Shown: piece after piece, positions 6,031 to 15,229 of the stretch
Layout: each line of letters starts with the position of its first letter
Position numbering within the stretch: position 1 is the stretch's first letter
Origin: Alphaproteobacteria bacterium
GTDB taxonomy: Bacteria; Pseudomonadota; Alphaproteobacteria; Bin95
Assembly: GCA_022822125.1 (NCBI GenBank)
Contig: JAJECF010000183.1
Coordinates: 1-15,229, forward strand
Reading direction: 5' to 3'
DNA length: 15,229 nt
Notes under the pieces: generated by a model
The model's database searches: none
What the model was told of the DNA's origin: nothing
Seen by the model: the letters and a program-made list of their open reading frames with translations, nothing else
Program-made: the position numbers and the translations under genes

Positions 6031-6117
6031 GCCCAGGTGGCGGAATTGGTAGACGCGCAGGTTTCAGGTACCTGTGGCCGCAAGGCCGTGGAAGTTCGAG
6101 TCTTCTCCTGGGCACCA
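6031..6117 (+). tRNA. tRNA-Leu (anticodon CAG)
   Basis: An 87-nt class II tRNA with encoded CCA. The acceptor stem GCCCAGG pairs with CCTGGGC. The anticodon stem CAGGT/ACCTG encloses loop TTCAGGT, giving anticodon CAG (6065-6067), which reads CUG, a major leucine codon in GC-rich genomes. A long variable arm and TTCGAGT T-loop are present. Its last 23 bases recur imperfectly at 10353-10375, making it the likely attachment site of the accessory segment that follows. Confidence 0.97.
6095..6117 (+). repeat. Left attachment-site-like repeat (3' end of tRNA-Leu)
   Basis: These last 23 bases of tRNA-Leu(CAG), ending TCTTCTCCTGGGCACCA, match 10353-10375 (ending TTTTCTCCCGGACACCA) at 18 of 23 positions in the same orientation. 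All five differences are transitions. The arrangement is what tRNA-targeting integration leaves: a functional tRNA end on one side and a drifting copy on the other. Confidence 0.5.
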
Positions 6118-6575
6118 AACCCTATGCTGGGGCACGCTTCATTTGGGGAATTATATTAGTTCCGCTCTTGAGCAACTACTGTCTGCACCGGTACCATTCG
6201 ACAGTAGGCGCAACCCCCGTTACTCGTGCGACGAAGCCGCCGCGTCGCGGGGATGACGACTCACAAGAGCGTACGATCATGCCCCCTACTGGAATCGACC
6301 CCAACTGCGGCAGGCTGCGTCGTCCGCTACACCTCCACTTGAGCGGGCGCGGTACCAACGCTCTGCGAATTATACTGGCAGGAGCATTCTAGAAGCGACA
6401 ATCGGGCCGCGAATTGCTCGGGAGCGCCCCTGCATCGTTCCTTGAGCATGACAGATGCGCGCTGAAAGCGTCGAATTCGGCCGTGCGAAACCGAACGCGC
6501 CATGCCAAGCTCGACGCGCATGTTTCAGCCGTCCGGCGGACGGGAGGCGCCGGAACGGAACACCGGGGGAGCCGG
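6118..6575. other. 458-bp non-coding leader of the helicase-PLD gene
   Basis: No convincing gene was found. It contains AT-rich patches unlike the surrounding core DNA, a GGGGAATTAT box (6145-6154) whose inverse occurs at 10318-10327, an ATATTAGTTCCG box (6153-6164) nearly repeated at 10339-10350, and a TATACT hexamer (6371-6376) that could be a -10 element about 200 bases before the helicase start, without a recognisable -35. Short open frames here have no good ribosome sites. Confidence 0.6.
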
Positions 6576-9500
6576 ATGACAAGCGACAAGGAACGGATGC
6601 GTGCGCGCCGGAACGAGGACGAGCAGGCGCCGCATCTACGCTTGGCGCGTTACTGGCGCGATTGCCTCGCGGATGCCGGACTCGGCAAGGGGCGCTTCGA
6701 GGACAGGGACCTTCCGGCCGAAAACACCCGGCGCCTGGAGGTGTCAGCGGAGGAGCTCCAGACAGGCTGCCTCGGGACCGGCACGCTGAAACGGCTCTTC
6801 TCACGGGTGGACGAGAAGCAGGACATCGCGCACATCCGGTTCTGGCCGCTTCTGTTCAGCCGCCGGACCTCGCACGGCACGAGCCGCATGGACGGCTGGC
6901 CCGCCCATGTCGCGCCGATCGTAGCAACCGCCCGGGTCGGCCGGCACGACGGCCGGATATGGCCGATGCGCACCGTGCTCGCGCGCGACGTGCTCGAGCC
7001 GCTCGGCGGACGCATGTTCTCGATCGGCAGCATGGAGGACCTCGACACCTTCCTTTCCGAATCGCCTATCCACCCGGCCGCAGAGGACGAGTCCCACGAG
7101 CGGATGTGGCAGCGTTACGGCCAGGACTGCAGGCGGTTGCGCGAAAAGGTGACCGGCGGATGGCCCGGTGAGGAGGACGAATACCAGAGCAGGCGCATCG
7201 GCATGATCGAATTTGCCGGAGACACGGCCGCCACGGTTCGCAACATCGTCGCCCTCTACGACAAGGCGCTCGAAGCGAAACCCAAAGCGCCGCTCTTCGC
7301 AAGCTATGCGATGGACCGGCCGGCAAAGGCGGCGCCGGGCCCCGACCGCCCCTACCGCCTCGCCTCGCTTCTCGGGCATTCGAGCGATCGCTTTCCGCTT
7401 GCGGACGGCCAGCGCGATGCGCTCGCCCACCTGGCCGTCGCCCGCGAGGGCGAGATACTGGCGGTCAACGGCCCGCCCGGAACCGGAAAAACCACCTTGC
7501 TGCTGTCCGCGATCGCCGGGGAATGGGTGCGAGCCGCGCTCGCCGGGGGCGAGCCGCCGGTGATCGCCGCCTCCTCGGCCAACAACCAGGCGATCACCAA
7601 CGTCATCGACGCTTTCAGGGAGAGTTTCGCGAAGGGAAAGGGCCCCTTCGCGGGCCGCTGGCTGCCGGGCATCGCAAGCTTCGGGCTCTTTCTCCCCGCC
7701 TACCGGCGAGAAAGGGAGGCTCGGGACCGAGGATACCAGACGGAAACATCCTTCGCCGAATGGGAGACCCGCGGATACGTGGTGAAGGCTAGGAAGGACT
7801 ATCTTGCCCGCGCGGCGAAGGCGCTGCCGGAGTTGGAGCGCGCCGACGTGCAGGGCGTGGTGGACGCGCTTCGCGCGCGCATCGAGAAGGCTGCCGGCAA
7901 GCTCGACGCCGCCGACGCCGCCCGCGTTGGGCTCGAGGCCGCGCGAAGGGAGGTTGCGGCCCTTCTCGGCGATGACCCCGAGAAAGCCGTGACAGAGCTT
8001 GAGGCGGACCGGGAGCGCGGCGCGCAACAGGATGCGGCCGCCCGGAGCCTCCTGGACGGCTGGAAGGCATATCTCGCGCAGGAATCCGTGTGGCTCGCAT
8101 TCTTCAGCTTCATCCCGCCAGTGGCGCGGAAGCGCCGCGACAAGGCCCGGTATTTCCTCGAAGGTGCGGGGTACGGCACTACCGACGCCGGCCTCCGGAT
8201 CGAGGCCGTCGAAGGCGAGTTGGACCGCCGGTCCCGCGACTGCCGGGAAAGGCTCTGCGCCGCCGCGGCGGCGGCGGATCGCGCGCGGACGGCGATGGAC
8301 GGGCTCGAGCGGGCATACGAGACATTCGCCGGCGCTGCAGAAGCCCTCGGTGCCGGCGAGGTCGATCCCGACGATCCCGGCGCCCTCGAACGGACAGCGG
8401 ACGTGGGCATACGCTTCCACCTTTTCCAGCTCGCGACCCACTACTGGGAAGGCCGCTGGCTCATCGAGACAGATCGCATCCTGCCGGACATAGACAGAAC
8501 GCGCACGAAGACTGGCGAGACGACGGCCGTGCCGCGGTGGCGCCGGTGGATGATGCTCACCCCCTGCATGGTCGCCACATTCGCCATGCTGCCGGACAAG
8601 CTCTCCGTTTCAAGAAAGGAGGACGGCGGGTTCCGCAAGGACTATCTGTTCAACTTCCTCGACCTGCTGATCGTCGACGAGGCGGGCCAAGTTCCGCCGG
8701 ACGTCGCCGGCGCCGCGTTCGCGCTTGCGAAAAAGGCCCTGGTGATCGGGGACACGCGCCAGATCGAGCCCATCCACCAGATCCCGAAATTCATCGATAT
8801 CGGTAACCTGATCGAACGGGGGCTGCTGCCCACGGACCACACGGAGGAGGACTTCGAGCGCGTGGAGGATACGGGCCGGACCGCTTCGGGCGGCAGCGCG
8901 ATGAAAGCCGCCCAGCGCGCCTGCCGCTATCGTCCGGAACCCGGACTCGACGGGGGCCTCTGGCTGTTCGAGCACCGGCGCTGCTATGACGAGATCGTCG
9001 AGTACTGCAACGCGCTCTGCTACCGGGGCAAGCTCGAACCCCGCCGCGGCCCCGCGCCGGATATTGGCGAGGCAGAGGAGCAGGCCATCCCCGGACCTCT
9101 GGCCTATCTCCATGTGGACGGCCTCTGCACGCCCGCCGGCGGAAGCCGCAGGAACATGGTCGAGGCGAAGACCATCGCCGCCTGGCTGGCGGCAGCGCGC
9201 GACAAGCTCGAAGCCCGGTATGCCGGGACGAAAAAGAGGCTCGAGAAGATTGTCGGAATCGTGACCCCCTTCGCCCGCCAGGCAAACGAGATCCGGGAGG
9301 CCTGCCGGGCCGTGGGCATCGCGGTCAGCGGCGCGGATGGCATGACGATCGGCACGATCCATTCGCTACAGGGAGCTGATCGGGAGATCGTGATCTTCTC
9401 CCCGACCTATTCCAAGCATGAGGACGGCGGATTCATTGACGGCTCGACCAGCATGTTGAACGTGGCCGTCTCGCGAGCGAAGGACGCCTTTCTCGTGTTC

Positions 9501-10118
9501 GGCGACATGGACCTCTTCTCGACCGCGAGGCCGGGATCGCCGCGGCAGCTGCTCGGACAGTTCCTGTTCGCGCATCCTGAAAACGCTATGTCCTTCCAGG
9601 CCATCGAACGCAAGGACCTCGCACGACCCGGCCAGGAAATTCGGACGCTACGGGATGCCGGCGAGCACGATGCGTTCCTGTTGGAACTCCTCGGCGCCGC
9701 CGGCAGCGCCAAGGTGAACATCGTCAGCCCCTGGATCGTGGTTCGCACCATGGAGGAGGAGGGCATCCTCACCGCGCTCGAAGCGGCCAGGAAGCGCGGC
9801 AAGGAGATCGACATCTATATCGATCCCGGGCTGAACGACGAAAAGGACAGGCACGGCGTCTCGAGCCTCGACCGGGCCCGGAGCGCGCTCACCGCGATCG
9901 ACGTGGAGCTGAAGCTCGTGCGGCAGTTGCATAGCAAGATCGTCTTCGCCGACGAGGAAGTGCTCTCCGTCGGCTCGTTCAACTGGCTCAGCGCACGACG
10001 CAGCGGCGACTTTGCGCGGCACGAGACGTCGCTGGTCTACAGCGGTCCGCATCTCTCGGGCGAGATCGAGGTGATCGCAGCGAGCCTGAAGAGGCGCGCG
10101 ATCGTCGACGCAAGCTAA
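6576..10118 (+). CDS. mkoC: SF1 (DNA2/NAM7/Upf1-like, COG1112-type) helicase fused to a PLD nuclease domain; Mokosh type II MkoC-like defense protein
   Basis: 1180 residues. An N-terminal region of about 270 residues has no recognised domain. It is followed by SF1 helicase motifs: Q-motif near Q279, Walker A GPPGTGKTT (299-307), Walker B DEAG (701-704), GDTRQ (725-729), EHRRC (799-803), VTPFARQ (896-902), TIHSLQG (927-933) and LNVAVSRAK (961-969). The roughly 400-residue gap between Walker A and B holds an Ala/Glu/Arg-rich, coiled-coil-like insert (about 415-595). The C-terminus carries one PLD active site: HSKIVFAD (H1119, K1121, D1126) then GSFNW (1133-1137). One-chain helicase plus PLD is the known layout of Mokosh type II, an anti-phage system; PLD nucleases with one HKD motif usually dimerise. 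The ATG at 6576 follows GGGGGAG by four bases; the frame is open 54 codons further upstream without family-like sequence. Other COG1112 helicase-nuclease fusions remain possible. Confidence 0.85.
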   Translation: MTSDKERMRARRNEDEQAPHLRLARYWRDCLADAGLGKGRFEDRDLPAENTRRLEVSAEELQTGCLGTGTLKRLFSRVDEKQDIAHIRFWPLLFSRRTSHGTSRMDGWPAHVAPIVATARVGRHDGRIWPMRTVLARDVLEPLGGRMFSIGSMEDLDTFLSESPIHPAAEDESHERMWQRYGQDCRRLREKVTGGWPGEEDEYQSRRIGMIEFAGDTAATVRNIVALYDKALEAKPKAPLFASYAMDRPAKAAPGPDRPYRLASLLGHSSDRFPLADGQRDALAHLAVAREGEILAVNGPPGTGKTTLLLSAIAGEWVRAALAGGEPPVIAASSANNQAITNVIDAFRESFAKGKGPFAGRWLPGIASFGLFLPAYRREREARDRGYQTETSFAEWETRGYVVKARKDYLARAAKALPELERADVQGVVDALRARIEKAAGKLDAADAARVGLEAARREVAALLGDDPEKAVTELEADRERGAQQDAAARSLLDGWKAYLAQESVWLAFFSFIPPVARKRRDKARYFLEGAGYGTTDAGLRIEAVEGELDRRSRDCRERLCAAAAAADRARTAMDGLERAYETFAGAAEALGAGEVDPDDPGALERTADVGIRFHLFQLATHYWEGRWLIETDRILPDIDRTRTKTGETTAVPRWRRWMMLTPCMVATFAMLPDKLSVSRKEDGGFRKDYLFNFLDLLIVDEAGQVPPDVAGAAFALAKKALVIGDTRQIEPIHQIPKFIDIGNLIERGLLPTDHTEEDFERVEDTGRTASGGSAMKAAQRACRYRPEPGLDGGLWLFEHRRCYDEIVEYCNALCYRGKLEPRRGPAPDIGEAEEQAIPGPLAYLHVDGLCTPAGGSRRNMVEAKTIAAWLAAARDKLEARYAGTKKRLEKIVGIVTPFARQANEIREACRAVGIAVSGADGMTIGTIHSLQGADREIVIFSPTYSKHEDGGFIDGSTSMLNVAVSRAKDAFLVFGDMDLFSTARPGSPRQLLGQFLFAHPENAMSFQAIERKDLARPGQEIRTLRDAGEHDAFLLELLGAAGSAKVNIVSPWIVVRTMEEEGILTALEAARKRGKEIDIYIDPGLNDEKDRHGVSSLDRARSALTAIDVELKLVRQLHSKIVFADEEVLSVGSFNWLSARRSGDFARHETSLVYSGPHLSGEIEVIAASLKRRAIVDAS

Positions 10119-10181
10119 TCGGGTAAGGACTTCGCTGCGCAGGAGCCGATATCCCGGTCAGGAAGACATGATGTCGATCTG

Positions 10182-10295
10182 GTGATCCCGCGACCAAGAC
10201 AGCGAAGGCAAGGGCAATATACGCAGCGTGGCATTCTGTCCGCTATTGCGGTTGGGGCGGCTGTATCCGCAGCCGTCGTCAAAGCACTTTTCTAG
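10182..10295 (+). CDS. Possible small hydrophobic protein (37 aa), doubtful
   Basis: A GTG-started frame gives a basic N-terminus (PRPRQRRQGQYTQR) followed by a continuous small-residue hydrophobic stretch (GILSAIAVGAAVSAAVVKAL) long enough to cross a membrane, then TAG. It lies in the same frame as the helicase-PLD gene and downstream of its TAA. The nearest purine-rich site (GGAAGA, 10171-10176) is too distant for this start, and no better start is seen. It could be a tiny membrane protein, the remnant of a larger gene, or chance. Confidence 0.2.
   Translation: MIPRPRQRRQGQYTQRGILSAIAVGAAVSAAVVKALF
10258..10275 (+). terminator. Hairpin downstream of helicase-PLD gene, weak terminator candidate
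   Basis: CGGCTG and CAGCCG form a 6-bp perfect stem around a 6-base loop. A short CTTTTC run begins about 12 bases later, not directly adjacent, so intrinsic termination is uncertain. The hairpin also overlaps the doubtful small ORF. Confidence 0.25.
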
Positions 10296-10352
10296 CTACG
10301 CTCCGACACTTTCCTACATAATTCCCCTTTAATTCAGCATATTAGTTGCGAT

Positions 10353-10375
10353 TTTGGGTTTTCTCCCGGACACCA
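10353..10375 (+). repeat. Right attachment-site-like repeat (decayed tRNA-Leu 3' end)
   Basis: A direct, imperfect copy of 6095-6117 (18 of 23, only transitions) that keeps the terminal CACCA but not the rest of a tRNA. Weaker similarity continues for about 20 bases beyond (both have GGGGC at the same offset). It marks the probable right end of the accessory segment, 188 bp before secG. Confidence 0.45.
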
Positions 10376-10414
10376 TACGCCATTCCGGGGCGCTTTCCGA
10401 TCATGTCCCGTTAG

Positions 10415-14630
<4,216 letters not shown>

Positions 14631-14642
14631 CCCGCAGGCGCT

Positions 14643-14662
14643 CCGGGCGGATAAGGGCCCGG
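14643..14662 (+). terminator. Hairpin after eno, possible terminator
   Basis: CCGGGC and GCCCGG make a perfect 6-bp stem around an 8-base loop in the 58-bp gap after eno. Only TT follows, so it lacks a proper U-tract. It could terminate or attenuate the operon before the complex I gene, which has its own strong ribosome site. Confidence 0.35.
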
Positions 14663-14688
14663 TTGCAACGAGGCGAGGAGGGTAAGCC

Positions 14689-14985
14689 ATGCGAGCATGC
14701 ATCTTCAGCCCGGCCCGCACGGCGATGCAGCAGGGCCGGGGCCGCACCGGTATCTGGACGGTCGAGTTCGAGCAGGAATCGGCCCGCCGGCCGGATCCGC
14801 TGATGGGCTGGACAAGCTCGTCCGATACCCGCCAGCAGGTCCGGCTCGAATTCGCGACGCGCGAGGCGGCGGTGGCCTATTGCGAGAAGCGCGGCTTCGA
14901 ATACAGCCTGCGCGCCCCGCAGCAGCGGCAGGTGAGACCGAAGGCCTATGCGGACAATTTCCGCTGGAACCGCGTTGCCGGGTAA
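14689..14985 (+). CDS. ETC complex I subunit (NDUFS4-like NADH dehydrogenase accessory subunit)
   Basis: A 98-residue protein of the ETC complex I conserved-region family (Pfam PF04800 type), the alphaproteobacterial counterpart of mitochondrial NDUFS4. It belongs at the hydrophilic arm of NADH:quinone oxidoreductase on the cytoplasmic side. The diagnostic block is WTVEFEQES followed by DPLMGWTSSSDTRQQVRL (residues 36-53), then an AAVAYCEKRGFEY segment and the YADNFRWNR ending. It has no signal peptide or membrane segment. The ATG at 14689 is preceded by a strong AGGAGG (14677-14682) at six bases. It stands apart from the nuo operon, as is usual for this gene in the class, and could be read through from eno. 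tRNA-Arg follows 10 bp after its stop. Confidence 0.93.
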   Translation: MRACIFSPARTAMQQGRGRTGIWTVEFEQESARRPDPLMGWTSSSDTRQQVRLEFATREAAVAYCEKRGFEYSLRAPQQRQVRPKAYADNFRWNRVAG

Positions 14986-14995
14986 GCGGCCATGC

Positions 14996-15072
14996 GCGCC
15001 CTTAGCTCAGCTGGATAGAGCAGCGGACTTCTAATCCGCAGGTCGGAGGTTCGAGTCCTCCAGGGCGCGCCA
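14996..15072 (+). tRNA. tRNA-Arg (anticodon UCU)
   Basis: A 77-nt tRNA with encoded CCA. Acceptor GCGCCCT pairs with AGGGCGC. The D arm is GCTC/GAGC, the anticodon stem GCGGA/TCCGC encloses CTTCTAA (anticodon TCT at 15030-15032, reading AGA), and the T arm is GGAGG-TTCGAGT-CCTCC. It begins 10 bp after the complex I gene stop and may share its transcript. An AAATCA-A-TGATTT palindrome (15076-15088) follows at once. Confidence 0.97.
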
Positions 15073-15161
15073 ATAAAATCAATGATTTACCTGCTTATCC
15101 TTGAGCTTCCACCTGTGAGGAGGTATGTTCTGTTTAGGTTCTCTACGGTGGAGGTCACGGA

Positions 15162-15229
15162 ATGGGCTTGAAATTGGCATCCCGGGTGCGCGGGCTGAGC
15201 GACGCGGCGTTCCGCGAGGCGTTCGGAGA
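15162..15229 (+). CDS. N-terminal start of a CDS, possibly IS1595-type transposase (partial, off the right edge)
   Basis: An ATG with GGAGG (15150-15154) seven bases upstream opens a frame that runs off the window. The 22 visible residues begin MGLKLASRVRGLSDAAFREA and end FG. The pattern of a short basic leader then a F-R-E-x-F-G segment resembles the start of some IS1595-family transposases, which continue into a zinc-ribbon region, but so few residues cannot settle it. Its place right behind a tRNA gene, with lower-GC DNA in between, is compatible with an inserted element. No terminal inverted repeat was recognised in 15073-15161. A host gene is the alternative. Confidence 0.4.
   Translation, partial: MGLKLASRVRGLSDAAFREAFG

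Follow-up and report, generated by a model that had tools for sequence, protein, structure and literature searches.

Background

Mokosh systems, described as anti-phage, join a helicase to a phospholipase D (PLD)-type nuclease. According to PMC11672841, type I consists of separate MkoA helicase and MkoB PLD genes with a serine-threonine kinase domain, and type II of a single protein with an N-terminal helicase and a C-terminal PLD; PMC10013915 gives an agreeing account. As to mechanism, PMC11291487 states that Mokosh degrades viral transcripts, a 2026 review (PMC12926258) places Mokosh among the systems of unknown mechanism, and no mechanism paper on Mokosh was found among the titles and abstract openings covered by our literature search. 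Here we describe a gene, mkoC, in a 15,229-bp stretch of contig JAJECF010000183.1 (assembly GCA_022822125.1) from an Alphaproteobacteria bacterium, the whole of which is referred to below as the window. This gene is very probably a single-gene Mokosh type II anti-phage system and the sole recognisable cargo of an insert of ~4.3 kb at the 3' end of a tRNA-Leu(CAG) gene.

Family assignment

Judged by its sequence, the gene is mkoC, a member of the known Mokosh type II family, as a preliminary description of this DNA had proposed from the single-chain helicase-PLD architecture. The PADLOC profile PDLC03924 MkoC, which that description had named as the check, matches the protein with 1191 bits over practically its whole length (residues 20–1174 against profile positions 5–1135 of 1136), the N-terminal region and the PLD included, compared with 105.9 bits for MkoA on the helicase part and 42.2 bits for MkoB on the PLD part. 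The protein search yielded 525 homologues at E ≤ 1e-3 among 7994 candidates scored, far beyond chance; the best of them other than the protein itself is 75% identical with 100% query coverage, and the organism names among the 120 homologues listed are, where given, those of alphaproteobacteria. The entry of the protein itself in this search comes from a contig of 22,550 bases. All 32 homologues in an alignment that we assembled by choice from those 120 (alignment A1) match the MkoC profile too.

The preliminary description had singled out the N-terminal ~270 residues and a long insert within the helicase as the places where the assignment could fail. Full-length MkoC of Escherichia coli, annotated in RefSeq as 'helicase YjhR', shares 40% identity with the window protein across residues 21–1176, and the identity by region is 31% (residues 20–270), 65% (271–350), 34% (351–655), 54% (656–1000) and 41% (1001–1176). 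Since 243 of 251 residues of the N-terminal region and 288 of 305 residues of the insert align with the E. coli protein, both doubted regions are related to it.

The reading frame runs without internal stop from an ATG at 6576 to a stop codon ending at 10118, and GGGGGAG just 5' of the ATG resembles a ribosome-binding site. A TTG at 6414 is an alternative start in the same frame; the MkoC profile match begins at residue 20 counted from 6576. No sigma-70-like promoter was found on the + strand between 5950 and 10600, where alphaproteobacterial promoters may differ from that pattern, and no terminator-like site was found in the same interval. Pfam places AAA_30/AAA_11 at residues 275–345, AAA_12 at 801–978 and PLDc_2 at 1053–1138, each over its cut-off, so that helicase domains are followed by a PLD in one protein. 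The superfamily 1 (SF1) helicase motifs and the one HxKxxxxD...GSxNW site reported earlier were found in the same chain, and every catalytic residue checked is present, the PLD site comprising HSK at 1119, GSFNW at 1133 and E1150, with a single HKD motif per chain. We take DEAGQ, GDTRQ, QGADRE and SRAKD to be helicase motifs II, III, V and VI. In alignment A1, K305, E702, Q729, R967, H1119, K1121, G1133, S1134, N1136 and E1150 are kept in 32 of 32 sequences, D701 in 31 and D1126 in 30.

The predicted fold is that of an Upf1/Ighmbp2/Sen1-type SF1 helicase with a Nuc/NucT-like PLD domain. The best structural matches of the model are RNA helicases (Upf1, Sen1, Senataxin and spliceosomal Aquarius); searching solved structures by sequence produced no more than five weak helicase matches at E ≤ 0.01, the best at 7.8e-5. 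The Pfam AAA_11/AAA_12 matches and the Upf1-like fold are in keeping with a COG1112-type helicase. The N-terminal region probably corresponds to the stalk plus domain 1B of such a helicase, judging from the ranges of the structural alignments and from the anatomy of Upf1. Helices of the long insert are predicted at residues 425–464, 468–502, 514–530, 542–590 and 601–645. The coordinates of all features are collected in Table 1.

Other assignments were tried and rejected. The NCBIfam model for IGHMBP2, representing a generic Upf1/IGHMBP2 helicase, scores 37.7 bits where its cut-off is 348.9, and the 21 NCBIfam models listed all stay below their cut-offs; membership in DISARM or Hhe finds only 21 bits with the DrmC profile and 14.5 bits with the Hhe profile, respectively.

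Table 1. Features of the mkoC locus (window coordinates; residues counted from the ATG at 6576)
Feature	Position	Strand	Remarks
tRNA-Leu(CAG), presumed insertion site	6031..6117	+	with UbiD upstream, conserved in relatives
Left copy of att-like imperfect direct repeat (tRNA-Leu 3' end and flank)	6101..6134	+	25/34 to right copy
Segment without blastn counterpart in G313	6118..10447	.	blastn pieces stop at 6117 and restart at 10448
mkoC	6576..10118	+	intact open reading frame, 1180 aa, single-chain helicase-PLD (Mokosh type II)
N-terminal region of MkoC, residues ~17-270	6624..7385	+	31% identity to E. coli MkoC; Upf1/Ighmbp2 structural alignments begin at model residues 16-18
Walker A GPPGTGKT, residues 299-306	7470..7493	+	
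Long helical insert inside helicase, residues ~425-645	7848..8510	+	helices in model; 34% identity to E. coli MkoC over 351-655, 29% over 400-600
Helicase motifs DEAGQ 701, GDTRQ 725, QGADRE 932, SRAKD 966	8676..9485	+	Pfam AAA_12 at 801-978
PLD nuclease domain, residues ~1017-1176 (H1119, K1121, D1126, S1134, N1136, E1150)	9624..10103	+	
Right copy of att-like imperfect direct repeat	10359..10392	+	beyond mkoC

Probable insertion at tRNA-Leu

The accessory nature of the segment beside the tRNA, also part of the preliminary description, is borne out by comparison with related genomes. Ranked by similarity over secG-pyrG-kdsA, G390 (91%) and G313 (87%) come closest to the window among 385 sampled genomes of the class, and members G410, G411 and G412 of the same family reach 92% over secG-pyrG. 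In G313, the blastn similarity to the window stops with the final base of tRNA-Leu (15284) and is picked up again at 15487, opposite window base 10448, so that the tRNA and the homology on the secG side lie 202 bp apart (15285–15486), compared with 4330 bp in the window. In the 14 genomes of this closest family, for which no completeness figures are given, the MkoC profile finds weak partial matches of 18–67 bits in six and no true copy. The same profile at default threshold gives weak partial matches in 11 of 14 control genomes and at E ≤ 1e-100 is positive, among these controls, in E. coli only; such weak matches are to be expected with a helicase profile. An earlier comparison set of 20 stretches (genomes of the order of L020 and the genome of L041) was too distant: tblastn found there neither MkoC nor any of the proteins of the left flank (amidase, SDR, protease-like, UbiD).

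An imperfect repeat of the 3' end of tRNA-Leu lies beyond the gene, and for this reason the insert was probably targeted to the tRNA with mkoC as its cargo. The 34-base repeat agrees at 25 positions, the next best score anywhere in 6201–15190 is 18/34, and 25/34 is reached by none of 3000 dinucleotide shuffles of 10119–10580. The 17 tRNA bases alone agree at 14 positions, a score reached by 2 of 3000 dinucleotide shuffles of 10119–10580 and by 3 of 2000 simple shuffles of 10119–10600. This is a pattern that a tRNA-targeting integrase may leave. Neither the 458 bp between tRNA-Leu and mkoC nor the 240 bp between mkoC and the right repeat leave room for an integrase, and mkoC is probably carried by a small tRNA-targeted insert without one. 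The GC content between the repeats is 0.657 compared with 0.688 outside, and that of the right spacer is 0.533.

Several observations weigh against the explanation as an anti-phage mkoC carried by such an insert. In G390, G410, G411 and G412, tRNA-Leu and secG do not share a contig, with no secG match within 10.5 kb after tRNA-Leu in G411, and secG was not recovered in G409; the ancestral arrangement is therefore not certain, and the near-empty-site argument depends on one genome, G313, as the sole direct case. The att-like repeat is imperfect. No integrase and no other defence gene was recognised among the window genes scanned (eight proteins with Pfam, three with PADLOC). A survey of 31 of the best 80 loci with relatives found a tRNA near mkoC in six (L006, L010, L011, L013, L026 and L036; tRNA-Leu only in L013), and no att-like repeat at these tRNAs is prominent, the best being 13/18 and 20/34. 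The structure model has a predicted template modelling score of 0.69, a moderate confidence.

The flank beyond the right repeat was also compared, in fixed register, with the flank following tRNA-Leu in eight of ten relatives (all except G415 and G221). It agrees with G390 at 14 of 18 positions, matched by 2 of 20,000 shuffles; the other scores are 8–9/13 (weak) for G409–G412, 8/18 for G417, 5/18 for G107 and 3/18 for G313. Over 24 bases, the left flank of the window agrees with G390 at 14 positions and the right flank at 17. The outcome is mixed and is not used as proof.

Two further repeats are found close to the insert ends: a perfect inverted repeat of 10 bp, GGGGAATTAT / ATAATTCCCC, at 6145–6154 / 10318–10327, each arm occurring once in the window, and an 18-bp direct repeat (83%) at 6153–6170 / 10339–10356. 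They could be due to chance or could be further traces of the insert ends.

We tentatively consider, with more doubt than belief, that mkoC travels as a single-gene, integrase-less mini-element of ~4.3 kb with imperfect tRNA-Leu repeats, moved in trans by the integrase of another element. If so, mkoC genes of the stand-alone kind would use tRNA-Leu sites as points of insertion.

Neighbouring genes

Leftward of mkoC lie tRNA-Leu(CAG), a UbiD-family gene, tRNA-Leu(CAA), an aspartyl-protease-like gene, an SDR gene, an adenosine-deaminase-family gene and an amidase; rightward, secG is nearest, and farther on are an NDUS4 gene and tRNA-Arg. The genes between secG and the NDUS4 gene are, from reading their translations, presumably pyrG, kdsA and eno. 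Rfam finds only three tRNAs in the window.

In G410 (L229:6410-8253) and G411 (L230:4687-6479), a different two-gene pair lies between an mnmE-like gene, called by eye, and secG. It consists of an AAA_21 ATPase resembling the candidate defence proteins PDC-M07A and HEC-01A and a 187-aa protein without Pfam or PADLOC match, both searches having covered the G410 copy. The site upstream of secG may be a variable spot.

Distribution and the E. coli yjhR gene

MkoC at E ≤ 1e-100 was found in 2 of the 385 genomes of the class sample, including the seed genome G001, where it is split over two contigs. Among plasmids, 164 of 72,556 records match and 38 cover at least 80% of the query; among phage records, 3 of 50,697 match, none at 80% coverage. 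Of the stretches from viral contigs, 28 fit a pattern and six of these encode a relative. The scan of genome contigs kept the best 80 of 410 stretches that encode a relative; at one of these loci, in Pantoea endophytica (L013:9710-13501), the mkoC relative begins ~0.2 kb 3' of tRNA-Leu(CAA), placed like the gene in the window, and no repeat of the tRNA end is prominent there.

With the mkoC of L025 as query, blastn finds some match in 2284 of 5426 E. coli genomes, and in 45 a place covering at least 80% of it. Among 40 records sampled at even steps from the 2284, one matches over 100%, 14 over 77–80% in two pieces, 21 only over roughly the final third of the gene and four in other pieces; full-length copies therefore probably number more than 45. 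The full-length copy of strain N1420 (L232:8980-12495, 'helicase YjhR') scores 1471.6 bits with MkoC, lies near DNA methylase genes and close to nanC/fimB, and adjoins a phosphorothioation-dependent restriction gene. The yjhR of K-12 MG1655 (L233:5983-7223) is an annotated pseudogene, frameshifted and incomplete at the N-terminus, and hence a C-terminal remnant of mkoC. The titles and abstract openings on yjhR make no mention of Mokosh; we do not claim the identity of MkoC and YjhR as unreported.

Proposed mechanism and alternative explanations

We infer that mkoC acts against phages in its host. The Upf1-like helicase would bind and move in an ATP-dependent manner along the nucleic acid of the infecting phage, probably 5'–3' on single-stranded RNA or an R-loop-like nucleic acid; RNA is favoured as the substrate because of the Upf1-like fold and the statement on viral transcripts cited above. 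ATP-driven movement would position, activate or license the C-terminal PLD nuclease, which would then cut, probably as a dimer because there is only one HKD motif per chain. The phage nucleic acid would be degraded or the infected cell shut down.

Dna2 and SauUSI act on DNA, and a DNA substrate is possible for MkoC as well. An appreciable though lesser chance goes to an MkoC that translocates on DNA and, in the manner of these enzymes, breaks down damaged DNA or the ends of phage DNA, an alternative that concerns mechanism and not family membership. The best structural matches are RNA helicases, which speaks for RNA although folds do not settle the substrate, and PMC11291487 names viral transcripts.

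Two further explanations take the gene out of active defence. A fold like those of Dna2 and Upf1 would also suit a cellular helicase-nuclease for DNA or RNA repair or surveillance, no defence island was noticed around mkoC in the window, and the neighbours of a relative on a Rhizobium plasmid are mostly metabolic, plus one zeta-toxin gene. A repair or surveillance function is nevertheless very improbable: the family is described as anti-phage, the 14 genomes of the closest family yielded no true copy, and MkoC is rare in the class sample, present on plasmids and apparently inserted at a tRNA. That the window gene is an inactive relic of a defence gene would agree with the decay seen in the family, where 21 of the 40 sampled E. 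coli records match only the final third or so and K-12 MG1655 carries an annotated pseudogene; its full-length reading frame, complete set of checked catalytic residues and plausible ribosome-binding site make this very improbable. The preferred explanation is an active anti-phage mkoC.

The Mokosh family is already known and finding one more mkoC is ordinary; its apparent arrangement as a single-gene insert at tRNA-Leu is mildly interesting. The window adds a well-supported alphaproteobacterial MkoC and, with G313, a genome for comparison in which only a short gap divides tRNA-Leu from the secG side, so that the gain of a Mokosh system at a tRNA site becomes visible, and it ties the E. coli annotation 'helicase YjhR' to the Mokosh family. 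Neither the G313 comparison nor the YjhR link alters what Mokosh is.

Comparison with known systems

The Upf1/Ighmbp2/Sen1 SF1B helicases are only ~14–18% identical to the window protein in structural alignments, and the window protein has a PLD nuclease added. In the ATP-dependent restriction endonuclease SauUSI, the PLD is N-terminal (match at chain residues 11–183), and its motor is an SF2 helicase, unlike the SF1 motor of the window protein. Mokosh type I is nearer, as the helicase part matches MkoA and the PLD part MkoB; the window has, however, one fused gene and not separate mkoA and mkoB genes, the type I scores are far lower, and Pfam finds no kinase family. From the E. coli representative of Mokosh type II the window protein differs in being only 40% identical, and its gene stands alone beside housekeeping genes in a tRNA-Leu insert; with type II (MkoC) it shares the single chain, the SF1 helicase followed by a C-terminal PLD, and the full-length profile match.
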